Shown here in pieces: positions 24,443 through 43,903 of a stretch of DNA of 64,000 nucleotides. The stretch covers positions 11,273,474 through 11,337,473 of the forward strand of contig OZ007505.1 in NCBI GenBank assembly GCA_963931865.1. Direction: 5' to 3'. The position numbers and the translations under genes were made by a program. Position 1 is the stretch's first letter; each line of letters opens with the position of its first letter. The notes beneath the pieces were generated by a model. That model was not told where the DNA came from, made no database searches, and was given only the letters and a program-made list of their open reading frames with translations. This DNA comes from Axinella damicornis (Eukaryota; Porifera; Demospongiae; Axinellida; Axinellidae).

Positions 24443-24492
<50 letters not shown>
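24443..24492. repeat. Poly-C tract of 50 bp
   Basis: An uninterrupted run of C following CATC. Proline- and glycine-only frames through it are artefacts. Confidence 0.95.
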
Positions 24493-24922: not shown

Positions 24923-25590
24923 TTATTGAGCTGAGCCTTCAGCTGCACCCTCGTCAGTAGTTGCTTCTTGCTGTCTGCCATGTTCATACTTAGACAACTT
25001 TCTGGTGCTTGGCTTCTTGGAGCGGACAGGTGGTGGGCTATCCGTAGATTCAGGCAGTGCTTCATAAATGTGTGATTGACTGCTGAATGGGGTTATCCGT
25101 GACCTACGAGGCTTTCGAGGTTGAACTGTAGATTCATGGGGATGTTCACTTTGTTGATCTGCTCCTTCGAATTCTTTTCGTTCAGGTGGGGGAGTAGGTG
25201 CCCAGTCACTGATTTTCTCGTAGTCAGGTTTGCCTGGGGATACAATGCTCTGAAGCCAGCTTCTTTTACGGCCATGCTGTTCAGGAGGTAGGTTAGTGTT
25301 TGGTACTTCATAGACTGGGTTTTCTTGATCGTGTTCTTGTTTCCCCTCCACATCCTGAGGACTAACTTGTTCAACCCCCTGCTGCTGCCTTTGTACTTGA
25401 CCGTAACTTGGGTTGTCTTCCATTTCCATTTGCACCGCAGTGAAAGGGGAACTAGTAAAAGCGTGAAAACATAAAAAAGACATGATGAACAATACTTCTT
25501 GAGAAGTGCTATTCTTCACAATAATGCACATGCATAGTTTGGTATCACAGTCATGCTAATCAGAATCTTTTCTTTTCTTTCAAACCTTAC
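24923..25590 (-). other. Cytoplasmic tail of the receptor with NPxY and Pro-rich motifs
   Basis: After TM7 about 290 residues follow, begun in exon 26184-25591 (Ser/Thr-rich, [16 protein letters not shown]) and completed in exon 25451-24923. The last exon shows [42 protein letters not shown] and [13 protein letters not shown], ending EGAAEGSAQ. Two NPxY motifs resemble endocytosis or PTB-binding signals of LDL-receptor relatives, and the proline clusters could bind SH3 domains; both roles are inferred from motif only. Confidence 0.88.
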
Positions 25591-28500
25591 CTCACATCTT
25601 TGTTTTCAACATATCTGTTGACATAATCATAATCGTGGGAAGTGTCGGCTTGACTTTCAAGAGACTTAGGCTTTGAAGCACTCTGCTTTCCTAATGTTGA
25701 AAAGCCTGTGGAATCAGTTGAGGTTGAAGAAGGTAGTGTTGACGCCTTCCCAGTCACATTTTCTGATCGGCCATATCGTGAAACACTGTAGGCTCTGGAT
25801 GACTTTGTTCGGATGGTGGAAAACCACTCTTTCCACAACTGTTTGGCGTCTTTGTTTCGTATCCCATGGAATGCAAAGATCAGAATGCCTTGCAGAGAAA
25901 CAAAGATGGTGAAAAGTATCTGGAATGCAAGTGTGACTCCTTCCACAGAAGAGCTGGTGGCAGTAAGTCCAAGCCCCCATCCAAGTCCAAAAACGATAGC
26001 TAGACCAACTGCAATAATAAAGTTACGTTTGAACAGCTTCCTTGTGTCTGTATTGTTGCCATGTGCAGCAGAGTGCTTGATGAGGGATGCCATGATTACA
26101 ATGAACACCACCCAGTTAAAGATGTAGAGCAGTACAAATGGTAGAATGAGTCCAAACCAAAATGGCCACTGAGTTGCTCGGCAGCTGCAAAGAGGGGGAG
26201 TTGCATGCAATGTAGCATCAAGACAAAATTCTAACACGATGAGTCAGACACAAGATACGTAACATAGCAGAAACCAGATTCAGTGTATTGCTATCATTTT
26301 ATGGAAAAGAGGGGCAACTTACTAGAAACGGTTGACGTAGTAGTCATGACCCACTCCAGCAGATATCGCAACGATCACCAGGGGTACCACTGCATGCACA
26401 TACACATTTGAATACTATAACCACCCACAAATAAACCCTAGCTGTTTATTGCTGCATGCCAGGATCAATGTGTTTAAGGTACTGCCAGAATGATGTGTTA
26501 TTAGTTAGGTATTGACTTACGCCACGTTGCAAGTGCAGCTTTCAAGATGAACTTGGATTCAATCCTCTGAGTGCCTAATATTACCACCAGCTTCGTGTAA
26601 AGTAGTATGGATTCTGCCACAGTCCATCCGAAGAACACAAGCATGAAGTAATGCAGCAGTGCAGAACTGATGCCACACAACACAGGGATTGAAGTGAGAT
26701 AGGCTCCAGTCAGGAAGAAAATGTACAGGCCCACCAAGGAGATGCTGAGGTTGATAAGAATCTGGCCATGTATGGATGTGCGCAGCTTCCTGCAAGGTGG
26801 GAATTATATCATAACTATCTCTAACAGAAAATGACTCCAGATATCTGTCAACACACTTTGAGCTTAGGTAGGTCACGATGAATGCAAGAAGACACAGGAG
26901 GGAGATCGACAGGCCGACATAGGTGATCACAGACAGAACAAGAGCAGCAGCTGGATGTGGAGGCTTAGGATTCAGATCCTATGCAGGATTGAACATGTTC
27001 ATGAGATCACAGATGGATGAGATAGCTATGCACACAATAGATAATTATACTTACGAAAAGGATACCAAAGTGAGCCAGTTGAGTACATTCACAGTGTTTA
27101 TCATTTCTACTGTTGGTAACAATTTCTCTACATCCTTCCGTAGACCAGGAACCAAATCCACCTGTATAAAATAAAATCAGTGTAGTTATAATTATATGTT
27201 GCACTAGCATGTATAAACTGCAAATCATCAAACCATTATTGGTTGTGTCCCAGTGTACACAGCTACTATCTCCGCTTTCATCCTGCAATGCCTGTGGTGA
27301 AAAATGGTGCACATAGTCTCGTGTCTAGTTAAATCGTTGTGCATATAACAGCTAATGACTACATGTAGCTACCTGATTTGTACGAAATTGAAGCTGCAGA
27401 GGTGTTTGAAGAGTTGTATTCCGTGTGACTTCTTTTCTGGTTCTTATAGATGTGCGGCGAGAACGTGTGGCAGCATTTTGTGCACACCTTAGCCTTGCTC
27501 CTATAATGATTGAGCCAATACTGTTGTTTGCATTCATTGATTGAAACAGTCCATCGCTCCGGAAGACGCTATAACTCAATCTATAATTATTGTTTGCATG
27601 TGTCCCTTGATTTTCACACGCACTCAGCACAGAATTTGATATTTGTAGCGATGCAGTTGCACTGTTTAATGCCTCCATCATGGTTACAAGTGCACTTTGG
27701 TCGATTGTATTAGTAATATTTGTTGCTTCTTCAACAGAGCCCAAGTCAACACTGAAGGCTTCACCTGCAAATGTAGTTTCATCAACATCCTGCACTTGAA
27801 GTGCAAAACTTTGCAAGGCATATAATGTCCTGTTAGCAGATGTATTGGTTTCCACTTCATCTGCAAATGTTTCCAGACTGCTTAGCAGCCTAAAGAAGAT
27901 ACAAAACCCGATCACAATAATTATTATTATTACACAGAAATGGAACTGGATACATGCCTTGAAGAGGAGTTTGTTTCCATCTGACTGCTCAACAAGGTAT
28001 CATCATCTGCTAACTGCAGATTGTCACAGATTTGTAAGTAGTTCTGCCTCACCTGTATCATACGTGATGTATTTTGTTGTAGTGCACATAATTGCAATTT
28101 CATCGCAGTACAGTGTATACAAACTATACCTGAGGGTCACGAACAGCGTCTTGTGTTAGTTGCTCAGCAATGAATGTGGCAGCAGATATGACAGTGGGAG
28201 TAAGATTTTCAGCATCCATGGTGATGCTTACCACATCTCTAGATACATTCAAGGGAGCATTGGCGACTTGCTGCATAGATGGAAGTCAACACGTGTATAC
28301 TATTACATATACAAGATCTGAAATTGCTCACACCGCATGCCACATGCATACATATAGCTTGGTCACATGGCTTATAAACAATCTGAGACTATGCTCACTC
28401 TTCAACTTCAAATGTAGCTGCTCTATAGCTTGGCAAACACTGGAGGTCATGCAGGCTCATCCCCTGACAACCAAGGTGAAAATCTCATGCCTTCCTCATA

Positions 28501-31500
28501 TTCCGCTCAGTATCTGGCAGAAAAGCTATAAACACTCCTTGATGAATGTGACAGTTATGCGTGTATGCATGTACGTACATGCATACACGCATATTAGTGG
28601 TTAAGTTACGTATGAGTTCACATACCACCGCATTTTCACACAAGTGCCTGGTGACTTCAGATACAAAGACAGCACATTGGGTGATATCTACTTGACTCCA
28701 TCTCCCACCATTTGAGTATGTACCAGTACACTGACGAAATGTATTCCCACTCTGAGACCCAAGAAGGTCTTGGCATGGACACGGTTCTGAAAGAGTTGTG
28801 CCTATTTCCACTTCTTGCCATGTGTAAAGGTAGCTGATGCCACCGAAATCAAAAGTTCTAGTCTCTCTTGGACATCCATCTGCAGAACCAAAGGAATGCA
28901 GTGTGTCCACATAGTCATTGCAGTGATCAGCACACATGGCAACATGCTACAAAAATTAAGAAGTGCATCTCACATGCATAAGTTTGGCTTCTTACCATAT
29001 CTCACAATTTCAATGACTTGAAATCTTGCAAAACTCTGAAGCCGTTCACTAAGGATACTCCTGACAAATCCATAGGGTTTACCATTGTTGACTGGCCAAT
29101 TAACTGTGAATACATACGTTGTTTCTTGTTCCTGTAAACTAAATTGAACATGCATAAATTATGACTGTGTATTTTATCCATCAAATGGGTTACATGCACG
29201 TACCTTGTATTCAGTACTTGTATAGAATAGATACTTGCACTGGAGTTCAAGAGGGTGGTACCAACCATCCCAAGCAATTCCTGGATGGAAACATCAACAA
29301 GTATACATTATCATACCCAAAGAGTTTTAAGACACAAGTATATTATACCACATATTGCATACCCTTGGAATACTGTCATGATCCTCAGTGTGGTTGATGC
29401 CAAGTTGAACTTTGTATTGATAGACACCTTAGAAAAGATTAGCACATATAAATTTAGGTACAGTGTTTCATGTTCTTATAATATGAAAGACAACTGGTTT
29501 ATTGGAATTGTGCTTTGGTGCAAGCGCGTCACTGCACGAGGCATTCTGCGCAAATGCATATTTCTAGATAATTATAACAATGAATCTACAGCGTTTCATG
29601 CTCTTAATAAGGTATACCTGGAATTGCAACTTCTGCGAGATTGGATGATACTTGCCCTCCAGGATTCACAGCCTCACAAGAATACCTGCCCCTACTCCCA
29701 GGGGAAGCTTCAGGAATATAGAGGTAAGGCAGGGTTTCTCCTGGTATCAGTTCACCATCTTTACGCCACTTGTATATTGGTGCAGGATAGCCAACTGCCT
29801 CACAAGTGAGGTTTATTGGCTGGACAAGTTGTGCAGTTATATTTTCTGGTGGGCTAGTAATATTGGGCTCAGTAGCAGGTCTGTCAACTGAACGCAAAGT
29901 ACAAATAATTCATGCAGATATCTTGCATGGCTTGGAAGATGCACACATACCTCTTTCACTGCAGTTGATGCCAGTGTAGACTGGAGTGCACAAACATTCA
30001 TAACCAGCCAATAGGTCTACACATGTTCCACCATGCTGGCATGGTGAATCTATTCCAATGGCACTCCTACATTCGTTCCTCACTGCATGTCACAATAGAA
30101 ACATAGTTATGGAGACAGAAACATGGCAAGCTACAAGCTACTCAGTGACTTACTAGTCACCGTGATGTGGTGACTGACTGTGGTGGAAACTTCACCAATG
30201 GCACCATTTGTAGCCTCACACAGATATTCACCACTATCCACAGTACTGGCATTGCGCACAATGAGGATACTTGTGGTGACTTGTACTTCACCACTGAGCT
30301 GTTTCTCAATGGTCACCAAAACTCTTGAACTGTTCAGAACAACTTTTACTTCCTCTTCATCTCTCTTGAGCCAAATAATAGATGACTGGCGACTTCCACC
30401 ATAACTACACCTCAGTGATATCATGGTGAGCTCTCCAAAAGTGTGATTCCCTGTGACAACTGGGACCACTACATTCATTGGAAGAGGTCAAAGAAATTCA
30501 TAACATTCACATTATTTCTATAAAGCAGAATACCGGTTAGAAATGAAGAAGAAAATATTAATGTTTTTTTTTTATGGATGTGTAACAGGCCTAGGCTCAA
30601 ATATATGTATAAGTCCAAGAGAAACACCATGGGCAATATTGGTAAGCATGAAACCCACGACATTTCAAACTCAGTTTTTTGCTGTCACTGTAAGGTAGGG
30701 CGGGGTAATTCGGGCCACTTCAACTTCAGGTCAACGGTAACTAAAACGGACAGACTTTAGGCAAACTTCTGGCCATGTATATCCAGGGACTCAACCTGCC
30801 TACAACTCACTAGAAGCAAGAATCCAATGGATGCTTCTTTCCTGTTGCAACGTTGAAGTGGCCCGAATTACCCCGTGGCCCGAATTACCCCGCCCTACCT
30901 TACACAATAGATTATTTTGTTGAGGCCTTAGAGTAAGCAGCAGACTGGCAGTCACAATAACTGCACATGCAAGCAGCTAGAGAAAAGGCCATTGCTTACC
31001 AATAATGCCAAGTTGAGCTGATGCATTGATAGACTGTCGCCCAGCAGTCACAACGCAAATGTAGATTCCTTGATCAGACCAAGTCACATTGTGAATTGTC
31101 AGCATGCTACTCCTTAAACCGACAGTAATCGAATACTTGGAGCTGACAGGTCCAGTTTCATCCCCTACAATATTAATCTGTGCAGGGGAGTTGTCATTGC
31201 TCTGGTATTGCCAGACAATAGAAGTAGGACTTGCATGTACTGAACATTGGAAATGGGCTGGCCTTGAAGAAATCACAGCTATATTCTCCGGTCTGTCATC
31301 AAATTCCAAGATGATTCCTATCAAAATTATGAAGGACAATGCAGTTTGTACGCGATTCAAGTCAGGTATCAAGTTCATAATTATGCAAGAATATGTTTCC
31401 ATATTTCACTACCAGTTACAAGAGAGGCTGTTGATTTAGACCACGAAGTGCAGCTGAGTAGTCTAAATCGACCACAAAAGGGATTTCCAATAGACCACAA

Positions 31501-34500
31501 AAGGACATACGCTATAACTGGCTTGCATGTACTATAGCTAACTGAATTAGTGATCCCTGCATGCTCCAACTGGTTGAAAATTGAGAATTAGAATGTGCTA
31601 GCCATGGTCTAATTTCACAGTCAGCATGGTCTAATTTTTATAAACCAAAGCTGTTGCATGACTGTATTATCGGAGTATATAAAATATACTTTGATCCGCC
31701 AACGCACTATAGTAGACAATATGGCGCTCAAAGTGAACACTTAACTCTGTCTTTCAACACACTACTAGGCGATAATACTGTCTACAAGGTCATAAGACCA
31801 GAGAATTTGTCTCATAAGTTATGCTTTTCAACCATGCAATCATCATGCAAAATATAAATAGAAAGATGGAACAAGTGTGAATGGATGGCATTGGTAGATA
31901 CACTGGTAGTTGTGGTTGCATAAGTTATAGTGACCTCTATACAATACAACAAACCCAGTGAAAAATCACACTCAGGTTACCTCACACAATCCAAGCATAA
32001 CTATTATACCGGTAGCATAAATCTGCATGCACAATTTTCCGAATGGCAGGACCATGAAATCTCAGTACACTGTCCGAAAATGTGTGCTGTTCCCATTAGT
32101 TTGGTATATATGGTACAGCACACTCTTCGCATTGTGCTGGCACATTTACAGTTTCTTACGTACCAGTTGGAGGACATATTTCAATGGCATCCCTGCAGCA
32201 GTCTTCAAAGATATGACAGAGGGAATCACAGAAGCAATTTTGCGGTTCTCCTTCACACGCACCACCGGTGCAACATGATGTGAAATTTGCAGCCCTGCAG
32301 GAACCTGCAAACACAACTGCACCTTAAAGCAATCCACATAGATTAATTTGCGACATGCATACCAGGCGTAGCAGGTCTCGGAGTTGTTAGATTAGAAGCT
32401 GTATGGGAAGTCAAAAGGACAAGCAAAATGTTAGATCAGGTAATAACTTTAAGTCATATCACACATACAAGTGCAATTTTGGTGATCCTCCTCAAGAGAC
32501 ATCCCATCTGGACAGGCACAGGAGAATCCACGAGAGTCTGCAGAGCTCAGCAGACAAAGGTGACTGCACACTCCACGGTCACCTCCACATGGGTTTTGTG
32601 CTGTGGAACATGAACTAATGACATCAAGACTGGAATGTTGAATGGACAGCCTTGAAAGTGAATGTATACAGGAATCATGTCCACACTAAACAATCTGTTA
32701 CCCATATTAGTAGATAGCATACCTTGCGGCTGCCTTTCTTCAGTTACAATTTGGATTCCAAATGGTTGACCACACACATTCGTGTCAATAAGCGATTGCA
32801 CTGCTTGTCCTCCTGACTTGCTGGTTGAAAAAATTCCTGCATCCTGCCAATCTGAAAAGTAGAGTGTGTCCTCAAACAAAGTGATTCCAAATGGATGGGA
32901 GCCACTAATATTCACAAGGACTCTTCTGTTTGAACCATCCACATTTGAGCTCTCTATCTTGTCCAGGCTAGCATCTGTCCAGTAGAGTACTTGGGTGGAA
33001 TAGTCCAGTGTGAGACCATTTGGCCAGACCAAGCTGGTGTTGTGAATGACTGATCTATTACTCCCATCCATTGAGGCTTTCTCTATCTTGCCAACTGTGC
33101 CCCAGTCTGTCCAGTACATCCATCTGAAATTAGAAGATTGCATTCATGGTTAACAAATGCCCCATTATGTTGTTTTGTGTTACGTTAACACCAAAGAATG
33201 CACACCTTGTTTTGGGGTCAACAATTATTGCTCGTGGTATGGATGAGGATCCTGTTGATATCAAAGTTGCCCGGTAACGATCCAAAAGATCAAGAACTTC
33301 CACAGTTTTAAGTTCAGCATCTGTCCAGTAGAGTTTGTTGCTGACCCAATCCACTGTAACACCATCTATACATATTATAATATTAATAATGATCTTACCA
33401 TGCATACTTTGGATCAGATTGACAAAGAATTATACCTGGTGTGCCTACTCGTGATTCCACAAGAGAAATTGCTCCTGAACCATCTAGCTGGGACTCCCAG
33501 ATTTTGTTTTCAGCAACGTCTGTCCAGAAGAGACGATTTTGCCTGGGTGATGCATGTAAAATAGTATCCTTATTAGACGATATGATACACTCTTGTTCTA
33601 ACAATGATGCACTGCAAACCTGTAATCAAAGTCCAAAGCAATTGCGTGCGTAAGTCCACTCGCTGCAATGCTTGTTCTGTTACCATCCAGACTTAGCTGG
33701 CTTATGAAGGTTCGCCTTGCAAACAAGATGTATGGTTGTGGGACTGTGTAGACATTAAATAAACACAAGAACATGTTAATTTTATATATTGTCAGCTAGT
33801 ATACCAAACCAGTTCATATACAATTAGGTTGATTTATTGTTGAGGTGCATGCAGTGAAATCATAGAAAATTGTACCCGTCCAAGTCTCACACCATATAGG
33901 TGATGAACACGTACCACTGTTTATCACATTCTCACACACAGGTCCATATTAGTGCAAAGATATACCCGTAGAAAGGCAGTCATTTGGTACATCGCTGCAA
34001 CAGTCTCCAAATTGGTGGCAGTTTGCATCACAGAAGCAGTTTGAAGGTTGACCCTCACAAGAACCTCCAACACAGCACCTGGAGTAACCAGCTGCTGCAC
34101 AGGAACCTTTCCAAAAGTACGTAACATACAGATAAAACTAACTGGAACACAAATTCATAAGCACATCGTCATTTCTAGAATCACTGAGTATACCTTCTGA
34201 AGGAGGGCTTGGAGGAATTGCAGCACCTGGGATCGCTGCAGAACATTAGAACACAGTTTGTGATGGCCTAGTTTTGTGCTCAAATGGAGTGAATGCCTAT
34301 ACGCATGCAATAAACATGGCTGTGATTTTTCGCAGAGGAAATATTCCACTAGAGATTACTGGATAAAATACATGGTGCGTGCATAGGAAGTGCTCAGTGT
34401 TCTGCACGCATTCCTGTAAATTACACTAGCTAGGATATATCTTTCTATATGTGGAGGCTAAACTACATGCAGTGACAGGCCAACATGGAGAAGAGCTGTT

Positions 34501-37500
34501 GCTTGTTTGCATGTGACATGGGAGGCTTGAAACTGCTGCAGTGCACCTGGTACTGGAGCAACATATAAGTCTTTCATTGGTGGAAGGGCTGATTCAACAA
34601 CTTGGATATTTTCTTGCATATAGGACACTCAGTACACCAGCCAGTAGACTCTACAAATCCTCAACATGCATAAGTACTGATGATTAGGTTTGACATCCTC
34701 CTAATCATAGCTTACTTCAGACGTTTCCATTTACTTACTATGTTACCAATCATGTAGAGGGCTACGTAGAGATGTCATTAGTTCATATTTGAATATAATA
34801 GCTAACTCTTTAAATATATTAGCTAGCTATGGTACTTCTGCATAATTATATGCATGTGGATAAGTACAGCATACCATTGCAGCTGTATTGGTTGACCAGA
34901 GACATCCCCTCCGGACAAGCACAAACAAATCCCCTTGGATACAATACACTCAGGAGGCATAAGTGACTGCAGTTTCCATTATTATTGCCACATGGGTTTG
35001 CAGCTGCGAAATAGTGATATCATAGTTATTGCATACAAGACTGCAACACAAAAGAAACTCTAATTTTTGATTGGATTCTTCTCATTGGTATGTGGGTGGG
35101 CGCCGGCAAAGATAAGGACAAAATTCTGGAACATTTTATAGGAAGGCCTTAGCTGCATGGTGGACTATGTCCTGTCACAAAATTTGGAATTGTTGATGCC
35201 AAATTTGGGAATGTGCTGGTATATATATATATATAATGGTGTGAATGTAACAAAGAGCCCCTAGCCATATAGCCTGTTATGCAAAAATTGACCTCTGCAG
35301 GAAGTCTTTAGAAATAAAGGTGATGTCAAAGGTTGAAGAAAGCAAGTGATTTCATTAAAAAGGAAATTTGAAGCACTTTACACAACATTAATCGGAGGAA
35401 GGGGCAGTTTTGACTCTTTCAAAGTGGTGTAGCCGGAAATAATGCCCACAAGTTTAGTCACTTCAGCACAGAAATAATTACAATGCAGCTACTGCTTAGG
35501 CAATCAAGACAATTATAATGGAGAGGAAATGTGCAGGGGAGAGGAAATTTGTAGTGGAGAAGAAGAATTTCAACTACGTGGTGGGAGGATAAACAGAGGA
35601 GCAAGTAATGCAAAACTACCTTGTGGCTGCCGCTGTTCACTAAAAACTTGGATACCATACGGGCGCAAATAGCAATCAGTCTGATAAAGAGTTTGCACAC
35701 TTTGTCCTCCAGATTTGTTAGTCATAAGAATGCCATTCAATATCCAGTCTGAAAAGTAGATTGTGTCCTCAAGCAACGTGATTCCAAATGGATGGTAGCC
35801 ACTGACATTCACAAGGATCCTTCTGTTTGAACCATCTGTGTTAGAGCTCTCTATCCTGTCCAGGTAGGCATCTGTCCAGTAGAGGACTTGGGTGGAATAG
35901 TCCAGTGTGAGACCATTTGGCCAGACCAAGCTGGTGTTGTGAATGACTGTTCTATTGTTTCCATCCATTGAGGCTTTCTCTATCTTGCCAACTGTGCCCC
36001 AGTCTGTCCAGTACATCCATCTACAAAAGTAAAATCAAAACTGTATCCCAATGTTCCACAATATGTTTTACATGCAATAATCACTTGCCCCCATGGAAAT
36101 GAACTACTGGGCATGTGCAAATGTTGCCAGGAAGAGTTTGTGACATATAGAACACATACCAGTACAGGTGCAGAGTAAATTACACTAAATTATGAACAAT
36201 CTAGCTCGTACAGATAGTATTAATCATGGTGTCAATCTCTGAATCCATCTGAACAGGGCCGAATATGCGTAGATGGCGGACAATGCTGGCACACAGCCCA
36301 TCCTCCGGGAAATATACCTTGGCACGGTGGTCAGCAAACATGGCATTGGACAGTTAGTGTGTACACTAAGACGCTAGAATTTTGGAACACTTTCCGAGCC
36401 ACATGACAGAGCAATCAGGCAGTTAGATGCAAATTCTGGTGTCACAATTTCGTCGCAGGCGCCAGACTTTCCTGAGATTGTTGTTAATGGACACCTCAAT
36501 GGAGTGGATTGAAGAGCATGACAGATTCTAGTGGCCACACCCGTACAATGACAAGCTGTTGTACACTGTCCAGAGCTTCCTGACCCCACTGGTCTGCTGT
36601 CAACTTGGAGGTCTTATTGCCATCATGCACAGCAGCAGTAATTCATAATAGAAACAAATTCTGTGCTTTCCAGCACACAAAACGAGGTTGCAATCATTTA
36701 CCTATTTAGGTATGAAACTTGATGAAAATGTATCCTAATATATAGAATTCCTGTCCAGCCAGGGTATCTAGCAATGGACCATTCTCAGTGGACATGTAGC
36801 GTACACTCTGTGCGTACATGTTTCACGCAAATCAGTTTGTACAGAGCACAATGATATTGATCCCTTCTGTGGAGATATAAGCACATGCGCATACACATTT
36901 TCTTTACATCAAGTTGTACAATCCGCATCTCATGTCAGCCCTAGCTGTACTTCTTCACTTATTGATCTTGTGTTCTTGCCTAATTTATCACAATTATGTT
37001 CGTGTTCTGTTGCCCCCCATTGGCAAATTCTGACTACAACAGCTTGCACCTGGGACTTGCCCTGCCCTCACTAACATCCCAGAAACAAAAATCAAGGCTT
37101 GTCTGGAGGTATGCCCAGGCAGACTTTGATAATGCCAAGGCAATGATTGAGACCACTGATTAGGACTCCCTAATTACAGAGGACATCAATGTGTCATTGA
37201 CAAATTGGCAGGCAAGATTCATGACGATTATGCATGCCAAGATGTTTCACCTCCTAACAGGTGGAACCTGCCCTGGCTGTCAAAGAAAATCATTCAATCC
37301 ATCAGAAGGAGAAATTATCTCTGAGGCCAGACGATCAAGTAGTGATAACTCCTATCAAAAGAATAGGATGAGGAGCAAAGTGACTTCTTATGCTGCGAGG
37401 TGCAAAAGCTGCATACATGCGCAGGCTAAACCCTTAGAACAAGATGAAGTTCTGGAAGGCTGTTAAGTATAATCAACTCACCCCCCACCTGTGCTCACTC

Positions 37501-40500
37501 ACAATGGAGTAGATGCCTCAACCAGTACTGACAAGGCTGCCATGCTAAACACATTTTTTGGTGAATGTTTTAATCACTCCATTGTCTCCGCTTGGCTTTC
37601 CAGACCTGGACGAGATTGACCACACTGAACATTGTCCTGAAGATTTTCTATGTACAACTGAGGAAGTGGAGTGGTTGCTAAACAGACTTGTCCTATGGTC
37701 CAGATGTTATTTCAGCTAGGATGCTATAGGCTGTAGCTCCTAGTATTGCTCCATCTATTACAATTTGTCCACCAAGACGGCTTGTTTTCCATCCATGTGG
37801 AAAGTGGCCAGTTCCTAAATCGAACAATCATACCAGCCCTTCCAACTCTTAGTAAACTTTCAGAACATCATGTTCACTTCTTGGTCACCAAGCATCTGTC
37901 TTTATACGACCCCATTTCGTGTAACCAGTGGGGTTTCCCTGCAGTCCGTAAAATCAACAGTCTCTGCACTACTAACATCTACTCATGAGTGACTTCAACA
38001 GATGGATGCAGGAAGGGAGGTGTGCACCGTGTTTTTCGACATACCAAAAGCCTTGGATTCTGTTCCCCACAGGGCACTACTCGAGATGCTCAAACAGCTG
38101 AACCTCAACCCTGTTTTGACTAGATGGATTTGCAGCCTTAGACAAAGAGTTGTGGTGGACGGCAATCCTCTGATACATATCTGTTGACTCAGGTGTACCC
38201 CAGGGTTCAATCTTGGGTCCTGTTTTGTTTCTCAATTATATTGATGGTATTGCAGACACTAACTTATCTTCAGGTTCCAAGATGTCTATTTATGCAGATG
38301 ACATGATGCTGTTCAAGACCATCCAGTCAAGTGCTGACTAGCTACACAGACTTGCAAAATGATATTGACTGTTTGAACAATTGGGTGACTGCCAACTACC
38401 TTCAGCTCTCCAAAATGTAAATGCATGCTGCTCTCCAGAAAGAAAAACCCATCACAGCCCCCTGCCCTGAAACTCGGTTCCTCTACTCTAGACAGAGTCT
38501 ACTCCTATAGATACCTTAGTCTACTCCAGACGTCAACCCTGAATTGGTCTGATCACATAAGTGCCATTTGCTGAAAGCTAAGAGGATGGTTGGTTTACTG
38601 TACAGGTGATTTTATAACAATACAAACTCTCAAAGCCTGTTCCACGTTTTATCTTGCCCTGGTAAGGCTGCACACTGAGTATGCTAGCCAGGTGTCGAAC
38701 CCTCACTTGCACAAAGACATTGATCAGCTTTAACGAGTACAGAAGTTCGCTCTACGTATATATGTGTGCAAAACAAGGATATGCCGATTTGCTCAATCGC
38801 TTTGATGTACCCAGCTTAGCCCATCGCAGGAATTATTTAAGCTTGTGCTCCATGTACAAGGAACTGGTTTATTTACCCCAAGATATATTTGTGCCCAAGT
38901 TCACCACGTTACGATCAGCATCGAAATCACTCTTAGAGTCTACATTCAACCCTTATGCTCACACAAATGCATTCTTACACTCATTTGAACCTAGCTAAAG
39001 CTCTTTCAGCTTGGAGTTTTCATGTTCTCGGATTTTACTATTATTATTAGCCTCAGCTATTGTATCGTCCATTGCATTTCTTGCATAGAAAAAAAAAACG
39101 ATAACGAGCGACTACGGTATATCAAACAGTTTCATAACCATCATAGCTAAGACTTAGCTATATTGTTTAATAAATGTAGCAAACTAGCTACTTAGATCCT
39201 TAGGTTACACAAGCTGTGTTGTTATGCTTGGTTGGCTATAACAACGGACCAGGATGGATTGCCTTCAGACCACAAGGTTGACACGCGGCCATTTACAAAT
39301 AGATCTTATTCTGTACCAACATAATATTATAATAACTGTGCATTCACCAATGCATACATAACAAAATACAATGCACATAGATCTATATAGCACAAAGCAG
39401 AATGAGCACAGCACTATACACCAGCTACCTGCACAATCTACAAATTCAACATCCAAAGGAAGACTCAAGGTTGTGAAGCGAATTAGTAAACACCAGCATT
39501 GTGTTGTGTGTGTGTATACCATGCTGTACCAATTCATTTGTTTTGGGTGAAGCAAAATTAATCAAGATCTGTATGCTGTTGCCTTACACAGCGTATATAC
39601 TGAAAACATGCCCACAAACAGGATCATATTTCCACTACCCACTTTATCACCACTGCAATGGGCAGGGATACCCATGCATGTTTCAGGGACTGAAAATTCT
39701 GCAATCCACATTTAACAGTCATGTGATCCACTGAATGGGAATAGCTAGTGTAATCCATGTGATCAGATTTACTCAAGGATCTGAGCATCATTCTGAAAAG
39801 AGAGGGGTGCCCTGCATGCCACTCGTTAATATGTCCGACATAATGCACTCCAGTCAGCTGTATAACACTACTGTACTTTGACTATTGGGCCATCCTGGCC
39901 ACTGTTGTCATTATCAGAATTATTATTAATATATAACTATACTTGCCCATTTTGAGGATCCACAACTATGGCCCTTGGTATTGAGTCGGATCCTGTTGAT
40001 ATCAGTTCTCCATGATAGAAATGGTTTGTGAGGTCAAATACTCCTATCGTTTTTCGTTCAGCATCAGTCCAGTAGAGTTTATCTGTGACCCAGTCTACAG
40101 CCAGGCCATCTATAGCAAATGAAATAAGTGCATGCACAATTCATGGGAATGAGGCTGAGGCCTAGAGCATACTGCAGCTGCATGATCATTTACCTGTGGT
40201 ATTCAATCCTGTTTCCAAGATAGAGGTGATCATTGACCCGTCTAGCCTTGACCTTGAGACGGTTTTGGTTGCAACGTCAGTCCAAAATATGGAACTGCGC
40301 CTGTACAATGAAACAGTAAACCTCACCTTTAAACTGTTATGCAATCAATAACCATTGAATAAGTAAGCTGTAGTCCAGGTACGACAAACACAAAACAACT
40401 AATGTAAGTGTACAGATATGACAGAATAAAGCTTGAAAACCTTTACCTGTAGTGAAAGTCAATGGCTACTGCGTTTTGTAGTTTGTGTCCACTGGCCAAA

Positions 40501-43500
40501 ATAGTTGATCTCGTTCCATCCAGGCTCAGTTGCTGGATAAATGGTTGGCTTGCAAATACCAGATAGGCTGCTGGGGAAGCTATAGGAGAAGAGCAAAAAC
40601 CTAGCTATAAAATGTCATATCTTTTGCAATTTTTGTCCTTCTTATCTTGCTATTAGAGTATAGCTAGTTGTACAAATTCCACCAATCAGATTACTCACTG
40701 CGCGGTATCTAAATCGCATAGTGAAACCTCGTATGGGGTTTTACTATTGAGCCCACAAGGTATATACTGTTGTTTACTGTCAAATTGGAATCTATGGCAA
40801 CTAGCTACTGTATTATACAACTGCTTCTACAGGTAGTGCACATAATTGTCTGTGTACTCAGTCTCTGTGTACAATGTAAAAATTAATAGTCAATTTTACT
40901 GGCATTTGGTTACCTCAACTTCAGGCCTACACTGCAAAAATGGTGTAGTTGTTTTGATTGCTTGGTGGTTACTACAGTTGCACCACGTTTGAACATGCAG
41001 GAACCAAGTTGTCTGCATTTCAGTAGCATCCTACATAAAGTGGCCATTCCAGTAGTACCCTACACAAACCTGGTTTATGTACTGGAATGCTCAGTGTAAT
41101 AGGATGCTATCGTCCTCCACATTCTAATAGTATAGTATTGCCTCGATCCTGCATGTCCAAACACGGTGCAGCTGTAGTAACCACCAAGCAGTAAAAATAA
41201 CTACTTTGTTTTTGCAGTGATAATAATTAAGAAATACTCTCCTCTTCATGCTTTCACTAAATTAATAAATGTACCGTAGCCAGGTCATTAAGATGTTTAC
41301 AGTTAGGAATGTGAAGCAGTCAGTGGGTCTCCTTCATGCTCAGTGCACATGCACAAACAACTGAAACAAATTGTTCTTTTTTACAGTGTACGCTATCGTT
41401 GGAAGTACAATCGGTACATGAGAGCTAAGTGGTAGCGGTCAATGACGACACTGGTGGAGTGGAGCCAAGTTGAGGGGCGGAGCCATGTGACTAGATCGAC
41501 TGCTTGATCATGCACGCAAGTCACTCGAGCGCCTTGTATGTCAGCGGCCTTGTCGTACTCATACCCAGTCTGTTATTTCGTCAAAAAGGACCTACGACTC
41601 GTAGGTTATTTTGTTGACAACTAAAGCGCTAGCGTAGTTACCGTTGCTATACTCTAAATCGGTTAGACACTGAGACCAAGGGATCTACACGATTTAGAAA
41701 CCCGAGGGCCCTGGGCTGTAGCATCCAGTAACTGTCCTATCTCAGGAATACAATAATGCCCATCTAGATCTTACCGAATAGCTTACCTCGTTTAACTCTT
41801 TCTTGGAACACTTTCCCTGCTCCTGCTACATCTGTTGGGTTCTGTGGCACAGAATACAAAGTGTATGGAAAAAATACCACACATTTGCATACTAGCTACC
41901 ATGAAGGAACACACCGATTGGGAAGGAGAGTATTCTATTGGTCCATGAAAATGATCCAAACTGTCCAGAACTGCATATCTAAACACAGTACACCATAATC
42001 ATTCAGCTGCACTTCAACCTACATGTAATTAGTATGCATACCTGAAAACGACATTCATTGTTTGCTCATACACCTTGTTTGTACAAGGGAGAGTCCAGGT
42101 GATAAGAAAGCTTTTCCTTGTGGAGGTTGAACAATAGAGAGCAGTGTCCTATAGAAAAGAGTGAACATCGTTACCACAAATGTCTTGTACTTACACGGCT
42201 AAACAAAAAAATATAATAATAGTGTTACTGTGAACAGCTAGTGAATACAATCATAACATAAATCTACATTTGATTGCAATTTTAACACAGATTCCGTTTC
42301 TGATTCCTCAGTGTCCAATCTAAAGCCCAAGTAGATTGGTTACTGTTACATCATCAGATCTGCCTTCAAAAGGTGGTACCTTCAATCACTGAACAGAAGA
42401 ATGACTAATCAGGTAACTAACAAAAAGATTGCACCAATGTGATGGTTTTCAGTTGAAACCTGGTAATGTTTTGCTTGAATTGACTCCTACAGCTAAAACG
42501 TCTGACACTCTAGTAACCACTATGCAAGAATTAGCTAAAGTAACAAATTTGCTTTTGCATGATTGTAGTGTTAATGTCTAGTACATGCTGTAACTTCAAC
42601 ATACTTGTGGTTCCAAGCAGTGAGCTGGCTTCCAGCCTCTGTCAGTCTCCAAGGACACAAACTGTCCCAAAGGATGACCATCGACACATGCCTGGATGAT
42701 AAAATCAGCTATTTTCTTGTGATCAGGTGTCGAATCTTCAGTGGTGAGTTCAACTACACGATAAGAGATCCACAGAAAATAATTGAGTCAGTAGCTATAG
42801 TTGTTGTGGTGAGTAGGAGACCATTAATTTTATACGGACAACAAAGCATACTCGCCACTCTGTCCACAGACTAGCACAGAGGACCAGATTTTCATAACTT
42901 GATAGAGTGTGCTTGTAATCTGTCATTCCTCTGATCAGGCTTATAATTATTATCGAGCTTCATGCATGATATCCAGAAGGTGCACACAGTGGTGGAATCA
43001 AGAGCTCATCCTTTCTGTCAGGAAGTGGTGTAGTTCCTTGTAGGCATCATCAACATTCTGTATTCATGAGATGGGTCCCATGGCATGCATGGTGGCATGT
43101 TTCTTCCGTCTGTATTTCCTTGTTTTTGACTCAGATGGCATGCCCATGCACAGCCTTCTATGAATACTTTAGCACTTTACACCATCCTGCTCTACCCATT
43201 CAGGTAAACACGAATGAATTAACATATTCATTTGACTGTTTTGTCTGCAGGAATTGAGGAAAGCAACAAATGTGGGGTGGAAACTGTGACACGCATCACT
43301 GCAGTCCAACACAATACATTTCCTTGGCTCCCAACTTGCACTTACTTCACTGGATTTTGCTAAGTATAGGTATGCATCTGCTTCAAACAGTATCTCCAGT
43401 TTGTTTAAAGTACTAGACGTCCGATGTGAGCCTTTATAATGCATTATAAATCCCAGCCCAGATCCTCCTTGTTGACCTTGGACTTGCAACCATGATGTGC

Positions 43501-43903
43501 ATGCCCTATGCAAATTGGATCGTCCCAGACACTATAGCTACTAATAGCTTCTCAAGAACATGTCAAGTCCCTTTTCCTATCATTAAATTATAAACCTCGT
43601 TGATCAGTTATATTTAAATTTATTCCACTCCATGCACACTCATCAAACGAGTAGCTTACCACTATACTCATGGCCACAGTCAACTGGGATGCGATTCGAA
43701 ACGCTGTGTAATGCAGCTGTTTCCCTCTTCCAAACTCGCAGCCGAAAAGACTCGACGGACTTCGAAGTACCCGTGACGCTACTTTCGTTCCATGTATGCC
43801 TGATACGCTCATCCTTGCAGTTCTGCAAAGGAACACAAAGTTCTGTGATAGCAACAGTACTGCACAGAAAAATATACAGCACAGCAAACTGCCCCCCGAT
43901 CAT
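24923..43903 (-). CDS. Chimeric adhesion GPCR with LRP-type propellers, somatomedin B, Ig and HormR domains (36 exons)
   Basis: Exons, high to low: 43903-43660, 42753-42605, 42148-42042, 41978-41915, 41841-41787, 40579-40447, 40300-40194, 40109-39947, 36020-35620, 35003-34875, 34235-34194, 34106-33966, 33743-33620, 33542-33436, 33365-33206, 33123-32723, 32600-32469, 32398-32363, 32304-32164, 31317-31000, 30468-30154, 30082-29951, 29887-29618, 29280-29204, 29131-29006, 28946-28626, 28270-28130, 28052-27958, 27889-27373, 27291-27234, 27161-27055, 26978-26857, 26789-26521, 26389-26323, 26184-25591, 25451-24923. Each junction has an AG acceptor and a GT or GC donor, and reading frame is kept throughout (6,894 nt, 2,297 aa). 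Adhesion GPCRs of family B2 are cell-surface receptors; YWTD/EGF modules are ligand-binding parts of LDL-receptor relatives. One protein joining both is inferred from phase continuity across the SMB-to-Ig junction (32164/31317). The least certain junctions are 43660/42753 and 29006/28946. Ligand unknown. Confidence 0.85.
25591..26978 (-). other. Family B2 seven-transmembrane domain
   Basis: Exons 26978-26857 (TM1: [20 protein letters not shown]), 26789-26521 ([20 protein letters not shown] for TM2, then [20 protein letters not shown] for TM3), 26389-26323 (TM4: [19 protein letters not shown]) and 26184-25591 ([20 protein letters not shown] for TM5, [20 protein letters not shown] for TM6, [20 protein letters not shown] for TM7). 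The [10 protein letters not shown] and FQ-LF-SLQG-IF-FH signatures are those of adhesion GPCRs. The TM2-TM3 cysteine (PVLCGIS) and the second-loop cysteine ([11 protein letters not shown]) that normally pair are present. Confidence 0.95.
27055..28270 (-). other. GAIN domain with GPS motif
   Basis: Exons 28270-28130, 28052-27958, 27889-27373, 27291-27234 and 27161-27055. The helical part and beta-sandwich cover about 250 residues. The GPS is split by an intron and retains both tryptophans and four cysteines: [39 protein letters not shown]. In cleaved receptors the triad is His-Leu-Thr/Ser; here the corresponding residues read Gln-Leu-Ala, so the nucleophile and the base are both absent. The intron between 27958 and 27889 needs a GC donor (GCATGT) to keep frame. 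Confidence 0.88.
28556..28593. repeat. 38-bp perfect palindrome
   Basis: Centred on GTAC/GTAC with no spacer: the arm TATGCGTGTATGCATGTAC is followed by its exact complement. It lies in the intron just downstream of the HormR exon, 33 bp from its splice donor. Confidence 0.95.
28626..29280 (-). other. Unrecognised short region and HormR-like domain
   Basis: Exons 29280-29204 and 29131-29006 encode about 68 residues ([20 protein letters not shown] in the frame that keeps phase, then [20 protein letters not shown]) that I cannot assign. The exon at 28946-28626 contains [44 protein letters not shown] and CAVF; the W-x-x-x-x-G-x...CP...R-x-C...G-x-W...C order is that of hormone-receptor (HormR) domains that precede GAIN domains in adhesion GPCRs. 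The splice at 29006 uses GTGAGA; a GTAAGA lies 9 nt further on but would break phase. Confidence 0.7.
29618..31317 (-). other. Three Ig-like domains with an EGF domain between the second and third
   Basis: Each domain is one phase 1-1 exon. Ig1 31317-31000: [17 protein letters not shown] and DQGIYICVV. Ig2 30468-30154: [19 protein letters not shown] and [15 protein letters not shown] 30082-29951: [20 protein letters not shown] then GINC. Ig3 29887-29618: [19 protein letters not shown] and [14 protein letters not shown], a classic I-set pattern. The Cys-Trp-(D/S)xGxYxC signature is present in all three. Several N-x-S/T sites are visible. Confidence 0.9.
30691..30902. mobile_element. Fold-back MITE in a receptor intron
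   Basis: TAAGGTAGGGCGGGGTAATT with CGGGCCACTTCAAC on the left is mirrored on the right, where the GTGGCCCGAATTACCCC segment is present twice. About 212 bp, no coding, within the intron between Ig1 and Ig2. Confidence 0.85.
32164..32600 (-). other. EGF domain, linker and somatomedin B domain of module 2
   Basis: Exons 32600-32469 ([29 protein letters not shown]), 32398-32363 (linker [13 protein letters not shown], Thr/Pro-rich, probably O-glycosylated) and 32304-32164 (somatomedin [37 protein letters not shown], ending in EICPPT). All three are phase 1-1 and mirror module 1 exactly. The last exon ends in phase 1 and joins the first Ig exon without a frame break, which is the key evidence that the LRP-like half and the GPCR half are one gene. 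Confidence 0.88.
32723..33743 (-). other. Second YWTD propeller, residues about 579-842
   Basis: Exons 33743-33620, 33542-33436, 33365-33206 and 33123-32723 repeat the exon layout of the first propeller, with nearly equal lengths and identical phases. Motifs are [44 protein letters not shown] and LYFSDW. The last exon is very close in protein sequence to that of the first propeller (both share [17 protein letters not shown]), which indicates duplication of the whole module within this gene rather than two independent gains. Confidence 0.92.
33966..35003 (-). other. EGF domain, Pro-rich linker and somatomedin B domain of module 1
   Basis: Three symmetric phase-1 exons. 35003-34875 encodes an LDLR-type EGF ([17 protein letters not shown], then CACPEGMSL). 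34235-34194 encodes a 14-residue linker, [15 protein letters not shown]. 34106-33966 encodes a somatomedin B-like domain with eight cysteines: [18 protein letters not shown], then [18 protein letters not shown] and a final cysteine in NDC. The CxC...C...DCC pattern is characteristic of that knot-like fold, which in vitronectin and ENPP proteins mediates protein binding. Confidence 0.88.
36021..36879. other. Rest of the large receptor intron, 3' side
   Basis: No exon fits here in phase. A Cys-rich minus-strand open stretch at 36589-36374 ([12 protein letters not shown]) hints at an old fragment but has no supporting neighbours. The rest is unassigned. Confidence 0.4.
36880..39098 (+). mobile_element. 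Decayed LINE (non-LTR retrotransposon) inside the receptor intron
   Basis: Reverse-transcriptase landmarks read on the plus strand: AKAMIETTD and [17 protein letters not shown] in the linker, [20 protein letters not shown] followed by YADDMML (38291) for the catalytic site, [20 protein letters not shown], and the C-terminal [20 protein letters not shown]. The 5' part resembles the end of an apurinic-type endonuclease ([26 protein letters not shown]). Many stops and frameshifts show it is dead. It ends in an A-rich stretch near 39,090. It lies opposite to the host gene, wholly within the intron between 39947 and 36020. The 5' end is uncertain, probably truncated. Confidence 0.85.
40932..41220. 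mobile_element. TIR MITE in the intron before the first propeller
   Basis: CACTGCAAAAATGGTGTAGT and GCTTGGTGGTTACTACAG on the left are mirrored by CTGTAGTAACCACCAAGC and TTTGTTTTTGCAGTG on the right. Arms about 65 bp, total about 290 bp, no coding. Confidence 0.7.
41787..43903 (-). other. N-terminal block of the chimeric receptor: signal peptide plus unrecognised Cys-containing region
   Basis: The ATG at 43903-43901 opens a hydrophobic leader ([20 protein letters not shown]), a convincing signal peptide, followed by about 185 residues over five exons that I do not assign to a family. Visible landmarks are [45 protein letters not shown] and [10 protein letters not shown], so several paired cysteines are likely. 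The last exon ([18 protein letters not shown]) runs in phase 1 directly into the first propeller. The join from 43660 to 42753 is phase compatible but skips another open stretch at 43505-43346; cDNA could change this part. The upstream 230 bp (43904-44135) separate the start codon from an inverted repeat and should hold the promoter; I see no clear TATA box. Confidence 0.6.

Follow-up and report, generated by a model that had tools for sequence, protein, structure and literature searches.

An LRP-like ectodomain on a predicted adhesion receptor

A stretch of 64,000 nucleotides from the sponge Axinella damicornis (contig OZ007505.1, positions 11,273,474 to 11,337,473; hereafter the window) carries a minus-strand gene, running from position 43903 to position 24923, that probably encodes a type B2 (adhesion) G protein-coupled receptor (GPCR) whose ectodomain was enlarged by exon shuffling with an LRP-like part. 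In the predicted product, a Reeler domain and two copies of a unit composed of a YWTD propeller, an EGF domain, a linker and a somatomedin B-like (SMB) domain would be joined in phase 1 onto an adhesion GPCR of the order Ig-Ig-EGF-Ig-HormR-GAIN and seven-transmembrane (7TM) bundle. Fusion of an LRP-like ectodomain onto an adhesion GPCR is suggested because a paralogue of the GPCR half shares nearly all of its introns and another gene of the same genome has the double module without a 7TM bundle.

Rebuilding the gene from splice sites and frame yielded 37 exons and 2,307 codons with a single terminal stop and every junction in phase. Thirty-four of the 36 introns are GT-AG and two, after exons 8 and 29, are GC-AG. 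Leave-one-out scoring placed the GC donor of intron 8 (2.4) and two acceptors, that of intron 36 (-0.36) and that of intron 11 (1.52), as the weakest splice sites; acceptor scores across the model ranged from -0.36 to 12.89. The gene is real and intact-looking, and the 37-exon pattern is not due to chance. One transcript is predicted from the genomic DNA to span all 37 exons. An earlier note on the window had described 36 phase-compatible exons and a product of 2,297 residues. Its agreement in phase held, as did its start at 43903, its stop ending at 24923 and its junctions 32164/31317 and 28626/28270, but its exon number and product length did not.

The first five exons (41787..43903; all features are on the minus strand) encode a signal peptide and the Reeler domain (Pfam match at residues 74-177) and end with a furin-type RVKR sequence. 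The first YWTD propeller and EGF domain occupy exons 6 to 10 (34875..40579), which include the 3.9-kb GC-AG intron 8, followed by a short Pro/Ser-rich linker of phase 1-1 in exon 11 (34194..34235) and the first SMB-like domain in exon 12 (33966..34106). The second module consists of a propeller and EGF domain in exons 13 to 17 (32469..33743), a short phase 1-1 linker in exon 18 (32363..32398) and the second SMB-like domain (SMB2) in exon 19 (32164..32304). Beyond intron 19 lie Ig1 (exon 20, 31000..31317), Ig2 (exon 21, 30154..30468), an EGF domain (exon 22, 29951..30082) and Ig3 (exon 23, 29618..29887), then some 95 residues in exons 24 to 26 (28996..29427) that matched no family. HormR follows in exon 27 (28626..28879), GAIN and GPS in exons 28 to 32 (27055..28270), the 7TM bundle and first part of the tail in exons 33 to 36 (25591..26978), and the remaining cytoplasmic tail in exon 37 (24923..25451). 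The domain order from the first propeller onward agrees with that proposed in the earlier note, which had overlooked the N-terminal Reeler domain.

These assignments rest on the gene model and on family searches, and those of Ig1, Ig2, GAIN-GPS and the 7TM bundle also on alignment to a paralogue. A Pfam search of the full protein matched Ldl_recept_b (PF00058; E value 7.5e-58, seven stretches), the EGF-type FXa_inhibition family twice, Ig in three places, EGF once, GPS beside the first transmembrane helix (PF01825; 1.2e-8, 35.8 bits, cut-off 22.5) and 7tm_2, the secretin/adhesion-type 7TM bundle (PF00002; 2.4e-29), bearing out the main domains that had been read from the letters. Reeler (PF02014) scored 23.2 bits in an isolated 221-residue piece (E 1.1e-4), above the cut-off of 21, and 18.8 bits, below it, in the full protein. 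Isolated pieces of exons 12 and 19 scored 13.9 and 14.5 bits with Somatomedin_B (PF01033; E 0.07 and 0.047); the cut-off of 23.1 was missed, and the domains are therefore termed SMB-like only. Isolated pieces also fell below the cut-off for HRM (E 1.6e-4, 22.4 bits, cut-off 26.2) and for GPR128 GAIN subdomain A (E 0.0061, 17.4 bits, cut-off 22). No LDLa (PF00057) repeats were found in the full protein up to E 0.5. Because it has neither these repeats nor a single-pass anchor, the gene is not classed in the LRP family.

Each module contains five YWTD-type motifs (FWTD, three YWTD and YFSD), and the propeller would have six blades, counting a first blade that lacks the motif. The two modules have a common seven-exon layout and are identical at 231 of 367 residues. 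In a Protein Data Bank search, the first module aligned from propeller through EGF to chains of LRP2, LRP4, LRP6 and LDLR, and the best solved relatives of the 7TM bundle were ADGRG6 and ADGRL3; the Reeler piece gave nothing convincing (best 0.0072). Within the modules, exons 9 and 16 (36020-35620 and 33123-32723) are 82% identical in DNA, compared with 50-68% for the other six exon pairs. Their first 150 bases are identical at 145 positions and bases 251-400 at 99 of 150, a pattern resembling that of a gene conversion tract.

Genomic relatives of the two halves

The source assembly (226 Mb, 120 contigs, with the window at C1:11273474-11337473) was searched for relatives of both halves. The nearest relatives of the 7TM bundle lie in a cluster on C5 (14.59-14.78 Mb), with six places at 52-55% identity in the second half of the bundle and one at 42%; a cluster on C9 (1.94-2.0 Mb) comes next, at 48-51%. 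A model of one C5 gene, starting at Ig1, running to its stop and spanning 1,247 residues, was built with boundaries placed by eye and the window gene as guide. From Ig1 on, 464 of 1,213 aligned positions were identical (38.3%), and Ig3 reached 47.6% over its matched stretch. Seventeen of the 18 introns from intron 19 on (introns 19-35) had a same-phase counterpart in the paralogue, 12 in the same column and five within 8 columns; intron 36 had none. Within exons 24 to 26, intron phases were the same and positions were shifted by at most 8 columns.

The modelled C5 paralogue resembles the window gene in having an SMB match upstream and in the order Ig-Ig-EGF-Ig-HormR-GAIN-GPS-7TM. At its locus an SMB match followed by an Ig match occurs twice in tandem (C5:14707392-14709647), and the SMB-Ig unit may be a mobile element of receptor architecture here. 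All six of the closest C5 receptors had a HormR match upstream, and for four of them the same strand carried an SMB match 7.6-10.7 kb upstream; none was found upstream of the other two at E 0.001. Unlike the window gene, the C5 and C9 paralogues had no YWTD match at their loci. They also had no Reeler match, but the same exon-by-exon search missed the window gene's own Reeler domain.

The counterpart of the other half was found on C7 (1.438-1.446 Mb), in an LRP-like gene with the unit of YWTD propeller, EGF and SMB twice and a phase-1 donor after its second SMB domain. About 1 kb past this double module, an exon encodes a Ser/Thr/Pro-rich stalk and a hydrophobic stretch, VGAVIGSLVAIVTFIVLVGAAILFVLVVIIRR, which by eye appears to be a membrane helix. 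No Ig, GAIN or 7TM match was detected in the 20 kb read at this locus, 9.8 kb of it beyond the second SMB domain. The C7 gene has the same double module as the window gene, with a single hydrophobic stretch in place of the 7TM bundle. Given relatives of both halves in one genome, the locus points to a way in which such a receptor could arise, by the joining of phase-1 exons.

Clusters of SMB-like matches were also seen at C9:10.82-10.85 and 13.14-13.17 Mb, and four of these matches fall within open frames that are roughly 860-900 residues long.

Proteolysis site, cytoplasmic tail and possible functions

The usual autoproteolysis residues of adhesion GPCRs, H-L-T/S, are not universal in the family. 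At the GPS cleavage site, the window protein has QL/A (residues 1773-1775), the Halichondria panicea receptor P0121 has QL/G and the C5 paralogue has RP/G. Because H-L/T or S is absent in all three, this group is probably uncleaved at the GPS. HFG was considered as the cleavage site and dropped; the usual C-x-H-L/T order places the site at QL/A. Phenylalanine and leucine at the third and sixth places of the tethered agonist are important, and this hydrophobic core is retained in the window protein. The locus also draws attention to a group of adhesion GPCRs, probably uncleaved, in which the tethered-agonist core is retained.

The window receptor should work like an adhesion GPCR. In the mechanism we propose, the propellers, SMB-like domains and Ig domains would bind a ligand in the matrix, on a cell surface or in solution, and the GAIN domain would be moved by force or by the ligand. 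The uncleaved tethered sequence AHFGILF could then act on the 7TM bundle to bring about G-protein signalling. Two NPxY and several YxxPhi motifs in the tail might recruit PTB or AP2-type adaptors, leading to clathrin uptake or cytoskeletal anchoring.

The NPxY motifs are NPSY at residue 2145 (25414-25403) and NPVY at residue 2176 (25321-25310). At least two NPxY occurred in 15 of 100,000 shuffles of the tail, a frequency that applies to motif matches and to a motif chosen after the tail had been read, which counts against the mechanism. The YxxPhi motifs are YDYV, YGQV, YEKI and YEAL. Of 16 loci tried, the C5 14.59-14.78 Mb cluster contributed seven readable tails, none with NPxY, and the motif was absent from the C5:15.195 Mb tail and from two further loci reaching about 16 residues beyond the 7TM bundle. 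Each tail was taken as the sequence between the 7TM exon and the first stop, a procedure that would miss a spliced tail exon like exon 37; with it, the window gene's own locus and four others stopped early in frame and one ended before the tail. At the C7 locus, no NPxY was found in three forward frames (L058 1201-6000; tail exons not modelled). Over 52 residues, part of exon 37 matches the tail of the receptor at C5:14.774 Mb with 41% identity (E 0.019), and this likeness is a hint that exon 37 came from the receptor family rather than arriving with the propellers. NCBIfam assigned exon 37 to no family.

NPxY tails occur in LRP/LDLR receptors, although not in all. The earlier note had proposed, on the strength of the propellers only, that the gene couples an endocytic ectodomain to a G-protein receptor; the NPxY pair gives this proposal a basis at the level of motifs, while the search found none of the LDLa repeats that are characteristic of LRPs. 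The fuller version, in which the GPCR would also be an LRP-type endocytic receptor that captures cargo with its propellers, is internalised through NPxY-binding adaptors and uses an uncleaved tethered agonist for signalling, is put forward tentatively and is rather unlikely. If it were true, uptake and G-protein signalling would be one molecule in an early-branching animal, and if the NPxY motifs work, the gene would offer a natural test of cargo uptake and G-protein signalling combined in one receptor.

A single gene might instead encode a purely adhesive receptor, with the propellers and SMB-like domains as matrix-binding spacers and the NPxY motifs as cytoskeletal anchors, as in integrin beta tails, and no LRP-like endocytosis. 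The missing LDLa repeats favour this alternative, as does a Geodia barretti protein in which such modules are combined with NIDO domains of nidogen type, suggesting a matrix role; however, exon 37 encodes YGQV, YEKI and YEAL as well as the two NPxY motifs. We regard a purely adhesive role as a real possibility that falls somewhat short of likely.

The RVKR motif (residues 208-211; 41799-41788) is located after the Reeler domain and before the first propeller and fits the furin rule. Furin cleavage here would free the Reeler domain and leave the remainder as the receptor, giving two products from one transcript. The evidence for this cut is a motif match, which makes it doubtful, and the cut would in any case be compatible with the adhesion GPCR proposed here.

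One gene or two at the SMB2-Ig1 junction

The one-gene model depends on intron 19 (31318..32163; phase 1, acceptor 4.64 bits), which separates SMB2 from Ig1, and across this junction it is likely to be correct. The SMB2 exon keeps a phase-1 donor of 8.33 bits. The Ig1 acceptor is in phase 1 in the C5 paralogue as well, where the Ig1 exon is internal and preceded by another Ig exon. The 846-base interval (32163-31318) was scanned for a signal-peptide-like exon, defined as a Met-started hydrophobic exon of at most 120 residues with a phase-1 donor. None was found in the interval, and the scan recovered its positive control, exon 1 (81 residues to the donor). Five of seven control introns longer than 400 bases also gave none, while intron 8 gave five and intron 20 gave two. 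The single receptor of the earlier note is supported by the shared phases from Ig1 on, the lack of a signal exon and the SMB-to-Ig order of the paralogue, and is weakened by an upstream Met and two possible endings within intron 19.

Several observations weigh against a single receptor. Exon 20 has an in-frame upstream Met extension whose hydrophobicity (2.82) is the highest among exons 2-37, and translation could begin there instead. Intron 19 contains two in-phase terminal exons, at 32060 and 31902, each with a helix-like stretch and a stop, and unspliced read-through past the SMB2 donor meets a stop after two codons. SMB2 is nearer to the first SMB domain of the C7 gene (63%) than to those of the C5 receptors (39-41%). 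The agreement of intron 19 with the paralogue is also qualified: exon boundaries in the paralogue were chosen by eye under the guidance of the window gene, and the two sequences had been trimmed to the Ig1 junction ahead of alignment, which gives intron 19 an equal column by construction; its phase is set by the frame, and the aligned Ig1 residues begin one column apart. The SMB, HormR and GAIN calls are all under curated Pfam cut-offs, and protein-database searches found no fused relative in other species among the matches listed.

Two adjacent genes could therefore be envisaged: a secreted or single-pass protein of Reeler and two YWTD-EGF-SMB units, ending near SMB2, and an adhesion GPCR expressed from its own promoter and starting at the Met upstream of exon 20. 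The early read-through stop, the two intron 19 endings and the hydrophobic Met extension favour such a division, as does the C7 relative, a double module with no 7TM bundle in the 9.8 kb read. However, the acceptors of the endings at 32060 and 31902 are poor (-1.2 and -1.94 bits, against -0.36 to 12.89 in the model's 36 introns). Seven of the other eight introns of at least 300 bases had no single-helix ending and intron 8 had five. When 316 overlapping segments of 846 bases from the window were examined at the same loose limit, 123 contained at least one, and because of this the endings in intron 19 are no more frequent than chance. The Met extension of exon 20 comes from in-frame reading of a T-rich acceptor tract, comparable extensions above 2 occur at exons 15 (2.32), 32 (2.18) and 37 (2.28), and on inspection that of exon 20 lacks small residues at the signal-peptidase site. 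Given also the phase-1 SMB2 donor and the internal, phase-1 Ig1 exon of the C5 paralogue, a division into two genes is quite unlikely.

A Thr-rich phase 1-1 mini-exon near 31936 in intron 19 was noticed by eye as a candidate and kept out of the model. A scan of the interval for bacterial-type signals, uninformative for an animal genome, gave 4 promoter-like matches against 3.2 in shuffled sequence and 1 terminator-like match against 0.5.

Rarity of the domain combination

The two propellers of the single predicted receptor lie 6.2 and 9.1 kb from its 7TM match, and the next nearest propeller place tested is 311 kb from one. Of the 40 places tested, all but these two were more than 300 kb from any listed 7TM match, in a test that entered 40 of 46 propeller matches (six near neighbours were left out) and used partial 7TM lists. 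Six propeller places on C4 had no listed 7TM match on the contig.

Among the best 120 of 216 homologues of residues 200-2130, none contained both PF00058 and PF00002. Candidates in the protein databases were 0.55-1.75 times the query length, and searches with the GPCR half scored only those sharing most words. The earlier note had proposed an orthologue search in other sponges; no fused relative was present among the matches listed for them, whose protein models may be split or absent. Viral contigs gave no DNA match for a propeller exon. A 7TM-piece pattern matched 339 times in bacterial genome contigs and 37 times in viral contigs, poor places to look for sponge genes, with no relative among the matches.

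Shuffling of the ectodomain is a known feature of adhesion GPCRs, and LDL-receptor class B propellers were not found in one in the searches made. Among the matches listed from the open-licence literature, in the portions available, no adhesion GPCR with YWTD propellers was found. For the Amphimedon repertoire, the available part of the source includes a figure legend giving EGF, fn3, Ig, HRM, SRCR and others, with somatomedin, LDL and YWTD absent (PMC4302439). YWTD and somatomedin are absent from the available text of a 2025 choanoflagellate paper, where LDLa appears only with rhodopsin-type receptors (PMC12716839), and from the first 300,000 of 412,533 characters of a 2026 adhesion GPCR review (PMC13197933). 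A figure legend on Halichondria panicea receptors includes somatomedin B-like, LDLa and NIDO domains, which the available text does not assign to receptors (PMC8242945). As in the window gene, amphioxus adhesion GPCRs carry Somatomedin B in the ectodomain, there together with Kringle, and YWTD is not mentioned in the part of that paper available (PMC2246102). In the accessible part of a study of Aplysina under microbial challenge, the changed genes included a GPCR and a Reeler gene (PMC6208332). The domain combination of the window gene was not found elsewhere by the searches made. Of the novelty claimed in the earlier note, the YWTD propellers in an adhesion GPCR stand within these sources; the SMB domains add less to it than claimed, given amphioxus and the SMB matches upstream of four of the six close C5 paralogues.

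Comparison with named receptors

The nearest named relatives of both halves are from sponges: Geodia barretti for the SMB-bearing propeller module (43%) and Halichondria panicea for the GPCR half (43-44%). In the propeller-module search, longer LRPs of other animals outscored Geodia barretti overall, among the matches listed. The Geodia barretti protein, named 'LRP6, partial' (P0007, 1,965 residues), has the repeated YWTD-EGF-SMB arrangement of the window gene, with 43% identity over residues 217-948, but differs in its two NIDO domains and in having no 7TM bundle. The Halichondria panicea receptors P0121, P0130 and P0131 (latrophilin-like or ADGRG6-like) share HormR-GAIN-GPS-7TM at 43-44% identity, with 42.6% for P0121 over window-protein residues 1409-2062. 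Unlike the window gene, they have no YWTD domains; P0121 and P0130 carry Calx-beta and Sushi domains and P0131 no further ectodomain family.

LRP2, LRP4, LRP5/6 and LDLR have, like the window gene, a six-blade YWTD propeller followed by EGF. They are single-pass receptors with LDLa repeats and no GAIN, GPS or 7TM domain, whereas the window gene, given the one-gene model, would have 7tm_2 in place of the single membrane helix. Outside the LRP family, YWTD propellers occur in a signalling receptor in the Sevenless/ROS1 receptor tyrosine kinases, which differ from the window gene in having a kinase and not a GPCR. A paper reportedly deals with dROS1 and its GPCR ligand BOSS (PMC11743138).

Other features of the locus

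Intron 8 (39946-36021) contains a plus-strand open reading frame (37993-38187) that by eye resembles a fragment of a non-LTR reverse transcriptase; a Pfam scan of a 64-residue piece of it gave no match. A run of 49 C lies on the plus strand at 24444-24492, about 430 bases past the stop codon of the receptor gene.

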